Assembly (NCBI GenBank): GCA_023512255.1 | Contig: JAILZY010000102.1 | Span: 1-12,033, forward strand | DNA: 12,033 bases | Reading direction: 5' to 3' | From: a bacterium | GTDB lineage: Bacteria > SZUA-182 > DTGQ01 | Shown here: piece after piece, positions 211 to 9,322 of the stretch | Layout: each line of letters begins with the position of its first letter | Numbering within the stretch: position 1 is the first letter of the stretch | Position numbers and translations under genes: made by a program | The notes under the pieces: model-generated | Told to the model about the DNA's origin: nothing | What the model saw: the letters and a program-made list of their open reading frames with translations, nothing else | Database searches by the model: none

Positions 211-3200
211 ATGACCAGATTAAAAAAAGTCATCATTATCTCTACTATTTTTATTGCCATTATTATTATCGGAAGTTTTCCGCTGATGGTTCGGTTTGGT
301 ACAAATTTTATGGAGAAAAAATTATTGTCCATAATTAATACCGAAATTTTGAAACCACTCACTGGACATATCGAATGGGAAAGGGTCAAACTCAATCTTC
401 TGAAAAATGAGCTTGTTTTTGAAGGTGTATCGTTTTATCCCACCAATCTTACCCACACCCAGGTCCGATCATTATCTTTATCGGCAGAAAAGATTCGTGC
501 CCGCTACAGTCTCAAAAAGGTTTTCAGCACTGGCAGGCTCTTTTTCCCCAGGGTACGCCTTGAGGGTCTGCGGGGAAGATGGACGCCGGGGGAGGCTTTT
601 TTCAAGATAGGGGAAGCTGATGAAAAGATCCCGCTAAGTGGAGAGCTGATCTTAGGTACACTACTTAGGGCGAATGCTTTTTTAAGCAAGGTGCAGGTGC
701 TCGATGGCTCCTTTCAGGTTGATCTTCCGGCACCAGTGGCAGCAGGCAATAGAATATCGCTGCGGCAGATTGAGCTGGCCTTGGATTTCTCAAGTAAAGG
801 TTTGGTTGCGGTGCAGGTTCAGGCTCCCAAGATAGAAATTATTGCCTCAGGCCAGGATGAATCTTTTATCTTGGAGGCGAGTTTGCATCTTGACCACAAG
901 GCCCTGAGCCTTGACGCCTTCTCTCTGGCCACAGAAGGGGGAGAAGAAAAGATCGACCTAGAGGGTAAATTATCCTATCCTGCTGATAAGCCTTTGCAGC
1001 TTGCTGCCTTCTATAAGGCGCGGCTTGACTGGAGGAGGATAGAGGCCCTCTGGCCTCATCTGCCTGCTGCTGCCCTATCTCCACTGCTGATCAAGGGGAA
1101 AATCGAGGGGCCGCTAGAAGCTCCCCTGCTTAAGGGAACTGTGGAGGTGGCTAGACTCACTCCTCATAGAAGTCATAGAAGCTGGCCAGGGGCATCCTCT
1201 GAAGCACCCACCACCTCAGTGGCCCAAAGGTGTCTAGCCCTGCTAGTGCCTAAATCTTCATTGGTAGCGGGAAATTCGCCCCGCGGGGGCGAACTAGTTG
1301 GGCAGCCAAAGCCCTATCCAGAGATTGATAAGCTGAAGTTCCGCTACCTGGTTGAAAAAGGGAAAATCACCCTGAGTCAATTTTCTTTCTCCACTCTGTC
1401 AGGAGGGGTTTTGGGGCAGGCTGTAATTTCTCTTCCTGAGCGAGCAATTTCCCTGACCGCTTCTCTTGATGGGTTGAGACTCGATCATTGTGAGCTTTCC
1501 TCACCAGCTCACAATTTTTCCTTAAATCTCATTGATAAGATTCGACGCAGATTTCCTGAGCTCAAGGGGAGAGCCTCCTTTGAGGGGAAATTGCTGCCAA
1601 GCCGCGGCCTGGTCGGATCAGGAGAGCTTGACCTGCGGCTCAATGGCCGTAAGCCTTTTGAGGGGCCGCTTTTTTGGAAAACGAAATTTTCACTTGTTGG
1701 AGAAAAAAATCTTCACTTCGATAGCTCCAACCTTAAGCTAGCCGAAAATAGGCTAGACTTTCGGGGAGAGCTGTCCACTTCAGCAACAGGGCAGGGCTTC
1801 AAAGATTTCTCCTTTGATCTTCGGCTCAAAAATATCAGCTCCCTTTCCTCCTTCTGGCCACTCACAAGGGAGGCAGCCGGGGAACTGTCCTTTTCGGGAA
1901 AAATGAGTGGCCCTTTTTCCGATCCGCAACTTTGTGGCTTGCTCATCTGGCAGAACGCAGCCTTTGGCCGCTATTTTGCCCAGAGAATTGAGGGGAGGAT
2001 TGACTATGATAAAAAATTCATCGCCCTCTCTGATGTTACCCTGGTTCAGAATAAGACCCATATTTCCATTGAGGGAAAGATTTCCGCAACCAGCGGACAG
2101 GGGACCTTGCATGCCGAAGCCGATCCGATTTATTATGATGATCTTGAGAAAATTTTAACTCTTCAAGCACCGGTTTTGATAAAAGGGAGGATGAGGTGCA
2201 CATCTGATTTCCAGATCCTACCCCATACTCCCCGCAAGTTTCTGGGCCAGGGGCAGGTTACCACTGCCGAGTGGTCCATTGCCGATAAGGAGCATCCATA
2301 TTTATGGCAGCGATTCGATTCTGTAACCAGCAGGTTTGAAGTTGATGGACAGAGTTTTCATCTCGATCAGACCGTTGGCTACAAGGGAAAGCAAAAAGTC
2401 GTGGCTGAGTTGATCATTCCTCACAGCGACTTGGGTCCAAATTCTCTCTACCGCTTTGCCTCTGATGACTGGAGCCTTGACCTTCTCGATACGGTCAGGG
2501 AACAAAAGATTCCACTACGGGGAAGAGCCTCTTTCCAGGTTCAGGGAAGCGGAGGGATTGGCTCTGGAGATTGGAGGTGGGAGCTTGTGGTCCAAAAGCC
2601 CCAGTATGAGGGTTTTAGTCTGGATCAGGTTGTAGCCTCAATCCACATGCAGGCAGATAAGTATTGGGGAGAGCTGAGCGCGGGAGAAAATATCTTCTCG
2701 GTTCAGGGGAAGATGGGCCAGGGCATCTCCTATAATCTGGATGGGCAGATTCCCCAATTGAGGGTGGAACCAGATATTGGTTATCTAGCTCGTGTGATTC
2801 AGACAAGGGCACCTTATCAGGACCCTAAGAATTATTATACGCCACTGGCTGGGGAGAAGATCTTCATCGAGCTTTCTGGAAAGGTCAAAGCCTCTGGGTA
2901 TCTGGCCGATTTTGAGCACAGTGCAGGAGAGTTTTTAGCCACTCAGGCTACGGTTCATACGCCGCTCTATCACTTTAGAGCCAAGGAGCCCTTTACCATT
3001 GTCTATGAACAGGGTCGGATTTCTCTTTCGGATAGTTGGTTTAGCAGCGGACAGGAACAGGGCATTGAAGCCAGACTTCGAGGTAGTGCCAATCAGCATA
3101 GACAATTAGATTTTTCCCTCTCAGGCGCTATCCCTATGAGCTGCCTGGGAGAGAAGTGTCAACTTTTTTCTGGCTCGACCGGAAACCTGCAATTTGATTT

Positions 3201-4443
3201 TTTCCTCAAAGGCCCGATAGACTCTCCTCGGGTTTTTGGCCGGCTTCGGCCTGTTGATTGCTCGCTTCCTATCCCGCAGCTCAACCGCCGGATCGAGGCT
3301 ATTGGGGGCGAGCTGCTCATTGATGGTCAAACCATAACTATTGTCAATCTTGCTGGCAGATACCCCGATGGGCGGCTTTTCCTGTCGGGCAAGATGGAGT
3401 GGCAGGATCTAGCCATCAGCTCGGTCGATTTAAACCTTCGGGGTGAAAATATCATCCTAGCCTCTCCCTCTCGATATCAATTTATTATCAGTGGAGATGT
3501 CCACTTGCAGGGTGATAAAGAGTACTCTGACCTGAGCGGAGTAATCGATGTTCGGGAGGGAAGATACTATCGGGATACAGGATTTTTGCAGGCTCTTTTG
3601 TCAAGGCGAAGAAGGATTGAGATTGATGAGAAGATGTTAAGTAGCTTTCAATCCTTGGCTACTGAATGGCTCGGCAATATGTCTTGTGATCTTAAGGTCA
3701 ATATTCCGCAAAATGTTTGGGTAAAGAGTGCGTTCTTGACCGCAGAAGTTGCCGGATCGGAGTTTTCCATTAAGGGTAATTTTCCTAATCCCTATCCAGA
3801 TGGCCAGATTCGAACTACGAATGGGACGATCCTTCTGGGAGGTAATAAGTTTCAGATTGTCTCTGGGGTCTTGGAGTTGACTGATCCGCAGCGGCATAAT
3901 CCATCAGTGGATATTCTGGCTGTGGCCGAGATTGATAATTATCAGATTTCCGCTAACATCTTCGGCTCGGTTGACGATCCCCAGATTCGACTCTCCTCAA
4001 CGCCCTATCTTTCCCAAACTGATATTCTCAATATGATCGCTCTGGGTATTAGCGCTTCTGATGGAGTGAGTGGCGAAGGGGATGATTGGGCAAAAGAACA
4101 GATGACCATCGGGGAGGAGCCTATACTTTCTGATATTTTTGGGAATCAGGTAACGAGTTTTTCCGGTCTTGATCTTTTTCGGGCCAAGCTCTTAAATCGC
4201 GACCTTTTCCGGGTGGATATTTTTAAGTTTAAAGTGGGCGAGGAGAGCGGCGCGGTTGAAAAGATTACTGTGGGACGGGACATAACCAAGAGGCTACAGC
4301 TTAAATATTCCATTCCAGCTAGCGTGGAAGAGAGGGAAACCGCTGAGGCTGGCTACAGGCTGTCTGATTATATCAGGCTGATTGGCTCCCAGGATGATCT
4401 TGGTACTTACTCACTTGATTTGAACTTTAGCTTTGAATTTTAA
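211..4443 (+). CDS. tamB: TamB-like (DUF490) translocation and assembly module protein
   Basis: This is a large AsmA/TamB-type protein of 1410 aa. In the family, an N-terminal helix anchors the protein in the inner membrane and a long beta-taco fold spans the periplasm to an Omp85 partner; family members carry phospholipids or help insert outer-membrane proteins. Here a basic start (TRLKK) precedes one hydrophobic helix at about residues 7-23. Beta-rich repeats with a G-x-[LIV]-x-[GF]-like pattern follow. The C-terminal TamB domain covers roughly residues 1060-1410, including GGNKFQIVSGVLELTDP near 1210 and LSQTDILNMIALGIS near 1267, and the protein ends in a barrel-like NFSFEF. The ATG at 211 has no visible Shine-Dalgarno sequence; I chose it because it is the only start that keeps the anchor helix. 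Residues about 315-368 look like an in-frame insertion (see findings). The Omp85 gene follows after 2 nt, so the two are surely one operon. Confidence 0.87.
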   Translation: MTRLKKVIIISTIFIAIIIIGSFPLMVRFGTNFMEKKLLSIINTEILKPLTGHIEWERVKLNLLKNELVFEGVSFYPTNLTHTQVRSLSLSAEKIRARYSLKKVFSTGRLFFPRVRLEGLRGRWTPGEAFFKIGEADEKIPLSGELILGTLLRANAFLSKVQVLDGSFQVDLPAPVAAGNRISLRQIELALDFSSKGLVAVQVQAPKIEIIASGQDESFILEASLHLDHKALSLDAFSLATEGGEEKIDLEGKLSYPADKPLQLAAFYKARLDWRRIEALWPHLPAAALSPLLIKGKIEGPLEAPLLKGTVEVARLTPHRSHRSWPGASSEAPTTSVAQRCLALLVPKSSLVAGNSPRGGELVGQPKPYPEIDKLKFRYLVEKGKITLSQFSFSTLSGGVLGQAVISLPERAISLTASLDGLRLDHCELSSPAHNFSLNLIDKIRRRFPELKGRASFEGKLLPSRGLVGSGELDLRLNGRKPFEGPLFWKTKFSLVGEKNLHFDSSNLKLAENRLDFRGELSTSATGQGFKDFSFDLRLKNISSLSSFWPLTREAAGELSFSGKMSGPFSDPQLCGLLIWQNAAFGRYFAQRIEGRIDYDKKFIALSDVTLVQNKTHISIEGKISATSGQGTLHAEADPIYYDDLEKILTLQAPVLIKGRMRCTSDFQILPHTPRKFLGQGQVTTAEWSIADKEHPYLWQRFDSVTSRFEVDGQSFHLDQTVGYKGKQKVVAELIIPHSDLGPNSLYRFASDDWSLDLLDTVREQKIPLRGRASFQVQGSGGIGSGDWRWELVVQKPQYEGFSLDQVVASIHMQADKYWGELSAGENIFSVQGKMGQGISYNLDGQIPQLRVEPDIGYLARVIQTRAPYQDPKNYYTPLAGEKIFIELSGKVKASGYLADFEHSAGEFLATQATVHTPLYHFRAKEPFTIVYEQGRISLSDSWFSSGQEQGIEARLRGSANQHRQLDFSLSGAIPMSCLGEKCQLFSGSTGNLQFDFFLKGPIDSPRVFGRLRPVDCSLPIPQLNRRIEAIGGELLIDGQTITIVNLAGRYPDGRLFLSGKMEWQDLAISSVDLNLRGENIILASPSRYQFIISGDVHLQGDKEYSDLSGVIDVREGRYYRDTGFLQALLSRRRRIEIDEKMLSSFQSLATEWLGNMSCDLKVNIPQNVWVKSAFLTAEVAGSEFSIKGNFPNPYPDGQIRTTNGTILLGGNKFQIVSGVLELTDPQRHNPSVDILAVAEIDNYQISANIFGSVDDPQIRLSSTPYLSQTDILNMIALGISASDGVSGEGDDWAKEQMTIGEEPILSDIFGNQVTSFSGLDLFRAKLLNRDLFRVDIFKFKVGEESGAVEKITVGRDITKRLQLKYSIPASVEERETAEAGYRLSDYIRLIGSQDDLGTYSLDLNFSFEF
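1149..1311. repeat. Palindrome-rich in-frame insertion inside the tamB-like gene
   Basis: This stretch encodes a Ser/Pro/Arg-rich, low-complexity segment (residues about 313-367) that breaks the otherwise regular beta-rich TamB pattern. It is dense in DNA symmetry: GGCTAGAC (1149-1156) with GTCTAGCC (1232-1239), a tandem 9-bp repeat TCATAGAAG (1164-1172 and 1173-1181), the palindrome CTGGCCAG (1182-1189), CCAC-N4-GTGG (1211-1222), and TTCGCCCC-N3-GGGGCGAA (1275-1293). The reading frame stays open throughout. It resembles in principle the palindromic elements known to insert in frame into bacterial genes, such as those of Rickettsia. Element identity and exact borders are inference. Confidence 0.4.
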
Positions 4444-4445
4444 GC

Positions 4446-7253
4446 ATGGAAAATCTTATCCGAAATCGCTTTGAGCCCAGGCTCAAAGTCGCGGTTATTC
4501 TCCTGCTGCTCCTGGTGATGGAGCCGATAATCTGCCAAGCTGTTGAGAATGAAGCTCTATTTTCCAACCAGCCCATAGCCGACATTCAAATCAAAGTTGA
4601 TGATCTGTCTGTAGTGCCGCAGGTCCGCTACCTTCTTGGTTTGAAAATTGCAGACAGGTTCAGTCAGGAAAAACTAGATCAGGGACTCAACCGGATAAAG
4701 ATGCTAAATCTTTTTTCCTCTGTCCAGGTAGAAAAAGAGGTTGATCCTCAGGCTGGAGTCAGGCTGACCATCGCCTTGAAAAAGCAGCCTATCATTGAAA
4801 AAATCAAGATTTGCGGCAACTATCCCCTCTTTAAGAACGAGGTCAGGAAGGTAATTAGAGTTCGGATAGGTGATCAGTTCAATCCTGAAATCCTTCAGCA
4901 GAGCGCCAGGGACATTGAGCGGCTTTTTAGGTCGGAAGGATATTATCAGGCCCGGGTATCGGTCCTCTCGAAGATATCCAAGCCGAGTCAGAAAGTCAAA
5001 GTTACCTTCCAGATCGAGAAGGGATGGCGAACCAAAGTGCAGGAGGTAAAATTTGAGGAAAATGGACAGCCACTTAGTGATGTCTTTGCCTTTCAGAGCA
5101 TTTTGGGTATTTATAAGGGAAATAGTCTGCGGGAGGTTAAGCTGAGAAGGAATATCCGGCACTTAGAGAGTATCCTAGTCAGCCAGGGATTCCTGGAAGC
5201 AAAGGTTAGCTTTCAGGTGATTCACTGTTCGGATGATCGTGCTCTTTTAAAGATAATTATTGACCGGGGCAGAAGAGTCGAGGTGCGGTTTCAGGGAAAT
5301 CACTCAATCAAAGAGGCGAAGCTGCGCAGCAAAATCGCTCTGTATGAAAATCGCTCCTGCAGTGAATTTGATCTTCAGGAAAGCGTTGAGGATATCAAAA
5401 GGCTTTATCTTGAAAGAGGTTTTTTATTTGTCAAGGTCTGGTATGAAAAAAAGGTTGCCGATAGTGGTAAGATCCGCATTACCTTTATGATTCAGGAGGG
5501 GGAAAGGGTCTTTTTGGACCGAATAACTTTTAGCGGCAATCGGGGCATTTCTAGCAAGAAACTGGCTGGGCAGATGCTAAGTTTACAGAAGATTGTGCCC
5601 TTTCAGCACAAAGCCTTTAACCGGCTGATTTATGAACAGGACCTTAAGGCTTTAAAAACTCTCTATGCCTTTGAAGGGTATCCTTGGGCTGAGATTCGTG
5701 ACGGGAAAACCACCTTTAGCCCTGATCAGAGGTTTATCTCCAAAACAGTCTTTATTCAGGAGGGGCCACGGGTAGTTGTGGAGCGGATTTCTTTTACTGG
5801 AAATAACCTCTTTCCCAATTCTGTTCTGGAAGAAAAATTGACTCTGCGGCCAGGGAGTTTCTTTACTGAGAAAAAATGGCAAGAGGATAGAAAAAGGCTG
5901 GCTATTTTCTATTCCAATCACGGTTATATTTTTGTCAATATAACTCCTAAGGTGAATTTCTCAAAAGAGAGAGGATCGGTAGAGATCACCTATGTCATTG
6001 ATGAAGGGGAGGCGGCATTTTTTGGCAAATCAATTATCCGGGGAAATGTCAGGACACGCTCTTTGGTTATTCAAGATTCCCTGATCTTTTCCGAAGGAGA
6101 AGCCTTCAGCTATCAGAAGGTGGTCGAAAGCAATAAGAATCTCAGCGACCTTGGCATTTTTCGGACTGTGCGGGTAAAACCGATCGGCCTGGAAAAACAG
6201 AGGAGAGAAACCGATATTCTGGTAGAAGTGGAAGAGATGAACACTGGACGGGGTAATCTGGGCGTTGGGTTTAATTCGAGCCAGGGCTATCGAGGCTATC
6301 TGGAACTTCGAGAAGATAACTTGTTTGGAACTTCACTTGGCACTACCTTGAGGCTGGAATATTCTGGCATAGGCCAGCAGTACAACCTCTCGAGCGGCGT
6401 CCAATACGCCCGAAAAACCACTCTCAGCCTCCATGATCCACTGCTTATGCCGAAGCAGAAGGTAGATGGCAATTTTGACCTATTCGACATCTATGAGGAG
6501 AAGACAGGCTATGACCTTCGGCAAAATGGAGTGAAGATCCGCCTGGAGCGGCCTTTGCAAAAAAGCACAAAACTTTCTCTCACCTATCGGCTTGAGGCGG
6601 CAAGATTGCATAATGTGGACGTAGCCCTAAGTATCATCCCAGAGTCAGACCGCGAGTTGACTATCAGCAGCTTAAAACCCACCCTCTCTTTCGATACCCG
6701 AGACAGTCTCTTTGATCCCCGTCGGGGAACCTTTGCCCAGCTTGGATTTGAATTTGCCGGAGAATTTCTAAAGGGAGAAAGCAGCTTTTCCAAGTTGACC
6801 ATCTCAAACGCCAAGTTTTTCTCCCTCTCCAGGCGGCTGGTGCTTGCCCTTGAAACAAATGGCGGCTATGCTTGGGTACCACTTCATGATGAGCTTCCGA
6901 TTCAAGAGCGGTTTTATGCCGGAGGCCTGAGCACTGTCCGAGGATATCTGGAAGATTCCCTTGGACCGCGGAATGAAGATGTTCCTACGGGCGGACGAAT
7001 TTTGTTGGTCAATAATCTAGAGTTTCGGTACGATCTCTACCGACAACTCGGCGGGGTTATCTTTTTCGATGCTGGCAATGTCTGGAGTAGCCAGAATGAT
7101 CTGGCCCTTGACTCGATTAGAACCAGCGCGGGCGCAGGGCTGCGGCTGGTTACCCCGGTTGGCCCAATCCGCTTGGATCATGCCTGGGTGCTGGGACGGC
7201 GGCAAGGTGAGCCGGTCGGGAAATTTTACATTAGCGTAGGACACACTTTTTAG
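4446..7253 (+). CDS. bamA: Omp85/BamA-TamA family outer membrane protein with seven POTRA domains
   Basis: This 935-aa outer-membrane assembly protein has a signal peptide (basic, then hydrophobic 15-29, likely cut after Ala32 in CQA). Seven consecutive POTRA-like modules begin at about residues 44, 115, 194, 276, 353, 441 and 522. Most show the hallmark central GN, a helix ending in a G-[YF]-x-x-[AVI] turn, and a closing strand ending in [EI]-[EDR]-G. The barrel runs 599-935, about the size of a 16-strand barrel, and contains EDNLFG, the loop-6 VRGY motif (831-834) and a terminal Phe as the barrel-export signal. Classical BamA has five POTRAs and TamA three. The upstream tamB-like gene suggests a TamA-like partnership, and none of the usual bamA neighbours (skp, lpxD, fabZ) is in view, so the symbol is tentative. 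The ATG follows the tamB stop by 2 nt without a Shine-Dalgarno sequence, which suggests translational coupling. Confidence 0.93.
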   Translation: MENLIRNRFEPRLKVAVILLLLLVMEPIICQAVENEALFSNQPIADIQIKVDDLSVVPQVRYLLGLKIADRFSQEKLDQGLNRIKMLNLFSSVQVEKEVDPQAGVRLTIALKKQPIIEKIKICGNYPLFKNEVRKVIRVRIGDQFNPEILQQSARDIERLFRSEGYYQARVSVLSKISKPSQKVKVTFQIEKGWRTKVQEVKFEENGQPLSDVFAFQSILGIYKGNSLREVKLRRNIRHLESILVSQGFLEAKVSFQVIHCSDDRALLKIIIDRGRRVEVRFQGNHSIKEAKLRSKIALYENRSCSEFDLQESVEDIKRLYLERGFLFVKVWYEKKVADSGKIRITFMIQEGERVFLDRITFSGNRGISSKKLAGQMLSLQKIVPFQHKAFNRLIYEQDLKALKTLYAFEGYPWAEIRDGKTTFSPDQRFISKTVFIQEGPRVVVERISFTGNNLFPNSVLEEKLTLRPGSFFTEKKWQEDRKRLAIFYSNHGYIFVNITPKVNFSKERGSVEITYVIDEGEAAFFGKSIIRGNVRTRSLVIQDSLIFSEGEAFSYQKVVESNKNLSDLGIFRTVRVKPIGLEKQRRETDILVEVEEMNTGRGNLGVGFNSSQGYRGYLELREDNLFGTSLGTTLRLEYSGIGQQYNLSSGVQYARKTTLSLHDPLLMPKQKVDGNFDLFDIYEEKTGYDLRQNGVKIRLERPLQKSTKLSLTYRLEAARLHNVDVALSIIPESDRELTISSLKPTLSFDTRDSLFDPRRGTFAQLGFEFAGEFLKGESSFSKLTISNAKFFSLSRRLVLALETNGGYAWVPLHDELPIQERFYAGGLSTVRGYLEDSLGPRNEDVPTGGRILLVNNLEFRYDLYRQLGGVIFFDAGNVWSSQNDLALDSIRTSAGAGLRLVTPVGPIRLDHAWVLGRRQGEPVGKFYISVGHTF

Positions 7254-7336: not shown

Positions 7337-8437
7337 TCACAGCACACGGTCAATGACCCCGCCGCCAAGAACTTTGTCATCCTGATAAAAGACAACAGAC
7401 TGCCCAGGAGCAATCGACCGCTCCGGGTCTTTGAAGCGAACCAGCACCGCATCCTTATTTTCCTCAATAGGGAAAATGATTACTGGCCGAGGCTGATGAC
7501 GATAACGAATCTGAGCCAAAGCCTTTATTGGACCTTGGATTGAGTCGATCAGCATCCACCTCAGATTGAAGGCTATCAACTCACGCCGGTAAGTCTCTGG
7601 TTCTTCACCGACAATCACAGCATTTTGCTCCGGGTCAATGGACAGCACATACAGTGGAGTCGGATGATAGAGGCCAAGCCCTCGACGCTGGCCAATGGTG
7701 TAGGAATAAATTCCCTTATGACTGCCAAGCACTTTTCCCCACCGGTTCAGAATCGGCCCGCAGCCTTGGTCCTGATGCCCAAGGTGGCTCCTCAGGAATG
7801 CGGCATAATCACCCTGGGGAAGAAAGCAGATTTCCTGACTTTCAGGCTTGTTGTGCACTGGCAGGCCAAGCTCTCTGACCATAGCTCGGACCTCTTCTTT
7901 GGTATAGGTTCCAAGAGGAAACAGTATCTGTCGAAGCTGCTCCTGGGTCAGCGTATAGAGGAAATAGGACTGATCCTTGCGCCGGTCTCTGGCTCGCTGG
8001 AGGTAGAGCCGTTTTGATTCTTGATCCTGAGCCAGCAAGACATAGTGGCCAGTAGCCAGAAAATCAAATCCCATCGAGCGGGCTTCTTTTAGAAGAGTGC
8101 CGAATTTTATCCTTAGATTGCAAGGAATGCAGGGGTTTGGCGTTCTGCCAGCCAGGTATTCACGGCAGAAATAGTCAACTACCACGCTCTGGAATTCCTG
8201 CTCAAGATCAAGAGTATAGAAGGAGATGCCAAGATGCTGACATATCTTGCGGGCATCATCAGCCTCCTCCTCCTTGCTGCTGCTGCCATAAGAGACAAAA
8301 GAGGGAAGCTTAAGATAGACTCCAGCTACCTCATACCCCTGCCTGAGCAGGAGATAAGCAGCCGCGGCCGAATCTACACCGCCGCTTAGAGCTACCAACA
8401 CCCTTTGATTTTTCGCTGTCTGAGTAGTTATGGCCAC
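7337..8437 (-). CDS. mnmA: tRNA-specific 2-thiouridylase MnmA
   Basis: MnmA adenylates and then thiolates U34 of tRNA-Lys, -Glu and -Gln in the cytoplasm, using persulfide sulfur passed from a cysteine desulfurase. The 366-aa protein has the PP-loop SGGVDS at residues 18-23, ATGHYV at 128-133, and the two catalytic cysteines in the expected places: Cys106 in NPCIPCN (paired with an extra Cys103) and Cys204 in QEICF. YTIGQRRGLG (246-255) and the C-terminal beta-barrel domain complete a full-length enzyme. The start is a GTG at 8437. It has no Shine-Dalgarno sequence, and a perfect hairpin ends 13 nt upstream, so the start is less certain than the identity; the next in-frame GTG, at residue 13, is possible. 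The gene is convergent with the Omp85 gene and lies downstream of the UPF0280 gene on the same strand. Confidence 0.97.
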   Translation of the reverse strand: MAITTQTAKNQRVLVALSGGVDSAAAAYLLLRQGYEVAGVYLKLPSFVSYGSSSKEEEADDARKICQHLGISFYTLDLEQEFQSVVVDYFCREYLAGRTPNPCIPCNLRIKFGTLLKEARSMGFDFLATGHYVLLAQDQESKRLYLQRARDRRKDQSYFLYTLTQEQLRQILFPLGTYTKEEVRAMVRELGLPVHNKPESQEICFLPQGDYAAFLRSHLGHQDQGCGPILNRWGKVLGSHKGIYSYTIGQRRGLGLYHPTPLYVLSIDPEQNAVIVGEEPETYRRELIAFNLRWMLIDSIQGPIKALAQIRYRHQPRPVIIFPIEENKDAVLVRFKDPERSIAPGQSVVFYQDDKVLGGGVIDRVL

Positions 8438-8446
8438 TTGTGTTAC

Positions 8447-8587
8447 TATTTAAGGGGAAAACCCTTTTGAAAAAGGGTTTTCCCCTTATACCCCTTTCCT
8501 AAAACTTTAATTAATATTAATTAAAGTTTTAGGAGGATGGGTTGGAAGGAACCCTTATTGAATAAGGGTTCCTTCCAATTTATTTAA
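8447..8587. repeat. Triple-palindrome intergenic element (MITE/REP-like) with flanking 7-bp direct repeat
   Basis: Three perfect inverted repeats sit head to tail. The first is an 18-bp stem with a 2-nt centre (8451-8468/8471-8488). The second is a loopless 38-bp palindrome (8497-8534) centred on TTAATTAATATTAATTAA. The third is an 18-bp stem with a 1-nt centre (8542-8559/8561-8578). The first and third share the core ACCCTT(T/AT)TGAA(A/T)AAGGGT, and the spacers are partly complementary (ACCC 8490-8493, GGGT 8539-8542), so the whole forms a larger imperfect palindrome centred near 8515. The direct repeat TATTTAA occurs at 8447-8453 and 8581-8587, consistent with a target-site duplication. No stem is followed by a clear T-run, so these are not textbook intrinsic terminators. 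Function is unknown. Confidence 0.75.
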
Positions 8588-9322
8588 CTAGCCTGATCTA
8601 AGCTTTACCTTTCCCCAAAAACCAGCCCGCTCATCCTTGATGATCACTGCCCCTTCTACCCCTTCGATCATCTGAGCCGCAGCTAGGGCCTGATCAATAT
8701 CATCCGCCGTCTTGACCATATTGCCGATGGCTGTGGCCGCAGCATCAGCCACTGCTGCTGATGGGGAAATGATCACCACTGCATCTGCTTGGCCAAAGCT
8801 CAGCGAATGCCCAACAGTTCCAGAAGAGGTGCATACTCCAAGCGGAGAGTATTCAGGCTCGATTTCCAGGCAGATTCTGTTACTAAAAGGGGAGCGTCCG
8901 GCAAATATTCTCACCAGCCGCTTCCTTGTGCTGCTCAAAAAAATATCCCCACCATTTTCCACAATTACCTGCTGGCAGTAGTTTAGCAGCTCCCGGCCAA
9001 CAAACTCAGCCACTGCTCCAGCCACTGCTGCCATTGGTCCAACGTTAGCCTTCTGAGCTGCCAGAATCATGGTCGAGACAATCCCGCTGGCCTGATCATC
9101 AGCAGGCAGAGGCTCTAGGCTCGTCAGAAAGACAGGATGACGCTCAATATATTCCTCAAGCGCCGCCCGACAACTTATGACGGCTTTCTTTGCCTGCTCC
9201 TCTAAATTTTTCTCAGCCAGAATGAAAAGATCAGTCTCTTTGACCACTACCGAGAATGGAGTGAGGTCCTCAGACTGACAACTTCGGCGGTATAGCCTTG
9301 GCTCATATCCAGAAGTCTTCAT
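8588..9322 (-). CDS. UPF0280 (COG2122) family protein, ApbE-related
   Basis: This 244-aa protein matches the UPF0280 family in length and motifs: VGPMAAVAGAVAE (94-106), ENGGD (122-126), GVCTSSGTVGHS (162-173) with a conserved Cys164, and the Ala-rich VADAAATAIGN (201-211). The fold is related to ApbE FAD:protein FMN transferase, recalling its GGD and DA-x-A-TA motifs, but FMN transfer has not been established for this family. From memory, COG2122 proteins of methanogens have been linked, together with COG1900/DUF39 and NIL-ferredoxin proteins, to sulfide assimilation into homocysteine through protein persulfides; Cys164 would fit such a role. That function is inferred here, and the COG1900 partner is not in the window. 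The ATG at 9322 has no Shine-Dalgarno sequence; a TATAAT box lies just upstream. The gene probably belongs to the leftward run ending in mnmA. Confidence 0.92.
   Translation of the reverse strand: MKTSGYEPRLYRRSCQSEDLTPFSVVVKETDLFILAEKNLEEQAKKAVISCRAALEEYIERHPVFLTSLEPLPADDQASGIVSTMILAAQKANVGPMAAVAGAVAEFVGRELLNYCQQVIVENGGDIFLSSTRKRLVRIFAGRSPFSNRICLEIEPEYSPLGVCTSSGTVGHSLSFGQADAVVIISPSAAVADAAATAIGNMVKTADDIDQALAAAQMIEGVEGAVIIKDERAGFWGKVKLRSG

Follow-up and report, generated by a model that had tools for sequence, protein, structure and literature searches.

The window, as we call the whole stretch of 12033 nt analysed in the present study, contains the genes for the tRNA 2-thiouridine(34) synthase MnmA and a UPF0280-type protein, and the intergenic gap between them is filled by a palindromic block at 8451–8578 (Table 1). 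At 211–7253 the window encodes a TamB-like protein (1410 amino acids) and, immediately after it, an Omp85 protein of the BamA/TamA type (935 amino acids). The three perfect inverted repeats claimed for the block in a preliminary description were confirmed, namely P1 (2 × 18 nt with a 2-nt loop), P2 (2 × 19 nt without a loop) and P3 (2 × 18 nt with a 1-nt loop), and with dyad centres at 8469.5, 8515.5 and 8560 the claimed spacings of 46 and 44 bp hold. P1 and P3 have the core AACCCTT/AAGGGTT in common. The block was also rightly called a 'palindrome of palindromes', because over 8460–8570 it was 78% identical with its reverse complement. The predicted RNA fold of the minus strand of 8438–8587 had an energy of −78.1 kcal/mol compared with −33.3±4.0 kcal/mol for shuffled sequences (z −11.3), the DNA fold of the same segment gave a z of −11.2 against shuffles, and the fold was very stable on both strands. 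The three dyads are genuine and go far beyond what chance would produce.

Table 1. Features of the palindromic block and its neighbouring genes in the window
Feature	Position	Strand	Remarks
Whole block	8447–8587	.	Inverted half-unit pair with three hairpins, plus TATTTAA flanks
TATTTAA, left copy	8447–8453	+	Runs 3 bases into P1; judged incidental
P1, outer hairpin of left half-unit	8451–8488	.	TAAGGGGAAAACCCTTTT / AAAAGGGTTTTCCCCTTA
HL, left half-unit	8452–8508	−	Covariance model R1, 79.7 bits
Conserved linker of left half-unit	8490–8508	−	Minus-strand reading AAAGTTTTAGGAAAGGGGT; same 19-mer in Ruminococcus
P2, central perfect dyad	8497–8534	.	Where the two half-unit linkers meet
P2 tip	8509–8522		AT-rich, variable
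HR, right half-unit	8523–8578	+	Covariance model R1, 66.5 bits
Conserved linker of right half-unit	8523–8540	+	AAAGTTTTAGGAGGATGG
P3, outer hairpin of right half-unit	8542–8578	.	TTGGAAGGAACCCTTATT / AATAAGGGTTCCTTCCAA
TATTTAA, right copy	8581–8587	+	Judged incidental
mnmA, tRNA 2-thiouridine(34) synthase	7337–8437	−	Start at 8437
UPF0280-type protein	8588–9322	−	NCBIfam PRK04334.1-3; stop at 8588

The full element of ~125 nt is built from two homologous half-units in opposite orientation, and thus has the terminal inverted repeats of a MITE. Each half-unit of ~55 nt starts with a conserved linker of 18–19 nt, AAAGTTTTAGGARRRKGG(T), followed by a perfect hairpin with arms of 13–17 bp. HL reads AAAGTTTTAGGAAAGGGGT plus GGGGAAAACCCTT-loop-AAGGGTTTTCCCC, and HR reads AAAGTTTTAGGAGGATGGTT plus GGAAGGAACCCTT-loop-AAGGGTTCCTTCC. 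P2 consists of the two linkers placed face to face and pairing as the central dyad.

Searching the window's own genome (G000; 3.83 Mb in 172 contigs) by BLASTN with the block revealed at least 40 further full-length matches, which were 89–96% identical with it; over all searches the identity of full-length copies was 89–98%. Copies were collected by linker pattern and by stretch: the right-linker pattern AAAGTTTTRGGAGGATGG, with up to two mismatches, occurred at 69 places compared with one for the reversed control, and the left-linker pattern at 90 places compared with two in the control. The tally was about 95 related and dispersed loci, comprising about 57 complete triple-hairpin copies, four pairs in which one or both of the outer hairpins are missing, and 26 left-only and eight right-only solitary halves, and the half-unit covariance model gave at least 150 hits. 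Thus the block is not a single-copy structure, which favours a mobile repeat, and its many dispersed, closely similar, non-coding copies are as expected of a MITE. A second subfamily with a longer centre of about 60–70 nt was seen at L031, L060, L079, L087 and L109; left-only copies such as L108, L110, L112 and L125 belong with it, and its start, AAAACTTTTAATAACC, is common to several left-only copies. Another repeat, CAGATGTTCCCCAT..., was found both beside elements and near contig ends (L040, L054, L101, L111, L115 and L130); it probably represents a dispersed repeat of its own at which the assembly breaks.

The stems were almost invariant within G000, and the AT-rich tip of P2 was different in almost every copy. 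Counted by cells, two-sided stem changes numbered five for P1, six for P2 and three for P3, and broken pairs 14, six and 20 respectively. Covariation was evident in the outermost variable pair of P1, which was complementary in 70 of 84 cases compared with 47.8 after shuffling (maximum 57), and a comparison between genomes showed two-sided changes in seven of 12 stem pairs. Solitary half-units were as intact as pairs: all eight right-only hairpins were perfect, and left-only hairpins carried 0.46 edits compared with 0.28 in pairs. An extra outer-hairpin half-arm lay immediately beyond the element, directly repeated, in 17 of 26 left-only copies and, among the pairs, at 14 of 59 right ends (controls, 0–2), on the left side at L090, L107, L116, L119, L120, L124 and L126–L131, and on the right side at L053, L073, L077 and L092.

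The TATTTAA flanks noted in the preliminary description are present on both sides, the left copy encroaching upon P1. Their reading as a target-site duplication was not borne out and is rejected: there was no excess of general flanking repeats among 55 copies, so the motif is regarded as incidental, and the element lacks the target-site duplication of a MITE.

We looked for empty sites in a genome of the same genus (G001, sampled to 1.15 Mb). A flank match of any kind was found for 35 loci, nine of them with both flanks colinear, and at all nine the element was absent from G001, as is expected of a MITE. At L075 the length difference between the two genomes was 134 bp for an element of 127 bp, and at L090 it was 156 bp for an element of 128 bp plus the extra half-arm, so that both differences equal the element within a few bases. 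Since the G001 flanks used were 73–85% identical, few junctions could be placed exactly. Model R1 had a single weak match in G001 and none in G002, G004 or G005; G003 gave one weak match in one search and none at a stricter limit. From the empty sites and the weak or missing hits in G001–G005, we infer that the element most probably spread in the G000 lineage after its split from G001.

The distribution across bacteria was assessed with the covariance model and with an exact 19-mer of the left linker scanned against 257 Gb of genome contigs. R1 was built partly from sequences that it then detects, and the scan provides the independent evidence. The 19-mer occurred in at least 88 stretches, compared with about two expected by chance from a base-count estimate. 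Nearly all of the matches listed were from Ruminococcus or other Clostridia, with others from Ca. Magnetomicrobium and a Deltaproteobacteria MAG, and most of those listed then carry the same hairpin; a few single hits without a visible hairpin, in Bacillus, Anaerolineales, Lachnoclostridium and, at a contig end, Desulfovibrio, may have arisen by chance. Ruminococcus, Ca. Magnetomicrobium and several further genomes carry a nearly identical half-unit. At a threshold of 0.001 on E-values that are only rough, the half-unit model was positive in 27 of 241 sampled genomes, in a collection that includes nine genomes of the window's own phylum. Many copies were found in three genomes from the same class, G006, G007 and G008 (6–68 each), and in G040, G119, G128 and G148, which belong to other families of the domain. 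Within the order to which G148 belongs, ten of 60 genomes were positive in a patchy manner, and every genome searched in the family of G128 had 59–74 copies. With a half-unit near-identical in distant genomes but missing, apart from one weak match, in close relatives, the distribution, as judged from these matches, is patchy.

The opposed pair with a central inverted repeat recurs in G006 (L234), G008 (L239) and G007 (L062/L067), in Ruminococcus (L146, L165, L178 and L187) and in Magnetomicrobium (L230). No match to the Ruminococcus-type half-unit was found in phage and plasmid collections. The outer hairpins of Ruminococcus sp. YE71 seemingly have another kind of palindromic repeat, CCGCCTTAGCTTCGCACGG, inserted in their tips (L158, L161, L164, L188, L195, L205, L214 and L219), and in a Clostridiales MAG a putative RidA-type gene, as read from its sequence, lies between two opposed composites (L194, 4299–5145).

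In the lineage of G128 the element behaves differently. G128 and G244, which are about 94% identical, have several copies in orthologous positions, which indicates that activity differs between lineages, and because many copies are orthologous in congeners, mobility in this lineage is low. At G128 C59:41658 a half-unit has been duplicated or lost locally, with one half-unit compared with two in G244, G245 and G246, and central palindromes were swapped between G128 and G244. Inspection also showed many collinearity breaks between G128 C24/C59 and G244 C6 within about 150 bp of a half-unit.

Taken together, the empty sites in the sister species and the nearly letter-for-letter half-unit in unrelated bacteria make the element look mobile. 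We propose, with a probability of roughly 0.7, that the block belongs, as one copy among many, to a mobile palindromic element of the non-autonomous, MITE/REPIN-like kind, which has recently spread in its lineage, transposition being deduced from the pattern of copies. The earlier suggestion of a non-autonomous mobile repeat is thus well supported, by the number of dispersed copies and the empty orthologous sites. A trans-acting enzyme would recognize the hairpins, perhaps as single-stranded DNA, and would copy or move the element, integrating it without a target duplication of fixed length. Intergenic sites near stop codons would be tolerated, with passive intergenic insertion being favoured, and distant lineages may have been entered horizontally, with local bursts thereafter. 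What is copied may be the half-unit itself, as single half-units have not decayed, unlike those of REPINs. Several observations count against the mobile element: neither a transposase nor an autonomous relative was found, there is no general target-site duplication, its solitary halves are as intact as its pairs, mobility is low in the G128 lineage, and the stop-codon bias described below could be explained by host function.

No transposase, matching IS or autonomous relative was found in a limited search. Single half-arms were rejected as IS ends at the places listed, where they belong to or adjoin known hairpins, except for one in L135. Nor was an autonomous element recognized between opposed half-units: in G000 the nearest single ones sharing a contig are separated by about 11 and 27 kb, and in G128 an opposed pair 1.2 kb apart sits among separate host genes.

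A function for the host at the RNA level was also considered, in which bidirectional 3′-end hairpins terminate, protect or process the end of the upstream mRNA (here that of UPF0280) and set the levels of mnmA. Distances from the element to stop codons were short (median 15 nt, with 20 nt or less in 45 of 71) and those to start codons longer (median 53 nt), a pattern that fits either promoter avoidance or an RNA role; the very stable fold on both strands, the kept stems with some two-sided changes and the vertical retention of copies in the G128 lineage are likewise consistent with such a role. However, the occupied gaps were 20% convergent, 59% codirectional and 21% divergent compared with a background of 22, 61 and 17%, on gene calls from a simple hexamer score that are approximate, and this background-like mix argues against a dedicated terminator. 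The GC-rich stem plus U-run on the 3′ side of genes that makes an intrinsic (Rho-independent) terminator was not found: the stems lack a trailing U-run, and terminator prediction gave no site at the block. Half-units showed no orientation preference, and genes of the same genus work without the element. A pure terminator, one form of the processing or terminator module suggested earlier, is therefore not favoured, and a host RNA function as a whole appears unlikely.

It is still less probable that the palindromes are by-products of replication or repair, which template switching and gene conversion would have made and amplified with no transposition system. The two-sided stem changes with the covarying outermost pair of P1, the tandem extra half-arms beside left-only copies and the hypervariable P2 tips would all fit, but about 95 dispersed near-identical copies and the same 55 nt in several phyla would be left unexplained. 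Such processes may act on the copies of the mobile element after insertion.

The least probable alternative, which we consider highly improbable, is a REP/REPIN or IS200/IS605-derived miniature element mobilized by a Y1 transposase: no target duplication and a patchy distribution would suit it, as would the inverted palindromic doublet in extragenic DNA at high copy number, but PF01797 (Y1 transposase) had no match in G008, G040, G119 or G128, all rich in copies, and a single match, weak and partial, in G000. REPINs are REP doublets that form hairpins and whose singlets are decayed (Bertels and Rainey 2011, PMC3116915). Like them, the element is a non-autonomous, extragenic doublet of inverted palindromes with a spacer and a larger predicted hairpin. 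Unlike them, it has a ~55-nt unit with a perfect hairpin and a conserved linker, it occurs in several genomes without Y1/RAYT, its single half-units are undecayed, and it is near-identical across phyla. Among the GTAG- and CGTC-tagged REPs, the CGTC group was reported without a dedicated transposase (PMC3733652); these are also palindromic repeats, often closely spaced in opposite orientation and mostly behind genes, whereas the element has three hairpins, lies between divergent genes at the background rate and, in the copies inspected by eye, showed no GTAG/CGTC tag at the hairpin feet (TAAGGGG and CCTTCCAAAA). Since Y1/RAYT is absent from four carriers, the singles are undecayed and no tag is visible, the element is not a strict REP/REPIN; 'REP doublet' stands as a description of an inverted palindrome pair, but not as a membership. 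The mover of the element would then be an enzyme other than a Y1 transposase (IS200/IS605, RAYT) of the carrier genome itself.

With ERIC/IRU, RUP, Correia/NEMIS and RPE elements, the element shares a size of 100–200 bp, an intergenic location, long stem-loops and recent spread (PMC2229807). ERIC, RUP and Correia elements have terminal repeats and target duplications (reviewed in PMC2229807), whereas each end of the present element is a complete hairpin, with no duplication and no matching IS found. Rfam at gathering scores gave no match in the window or at nine related loci. Searches of the open-access literature for the sequence strings of the element found no description, and those for palindromic repeats of Ruminococcus and Desulfovibrio nothing on it. 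Tentatively, the copies may represent a cross-phylum family of hairpin-ended mobile elements, of which half-units or inverted pairs would be copied by an unrecognized non-Y1/RAYT transposition or recombination enzyme.

If the element is mobile, a small and very stable palindrome would have entered several phyla and reached dozens of copies without a REP-type transposase. Its patchy spread offers a route to the responsible enzyme via correlation with copy number. For rearrangement, the inverted repeats that it carries provide obvious substrates.
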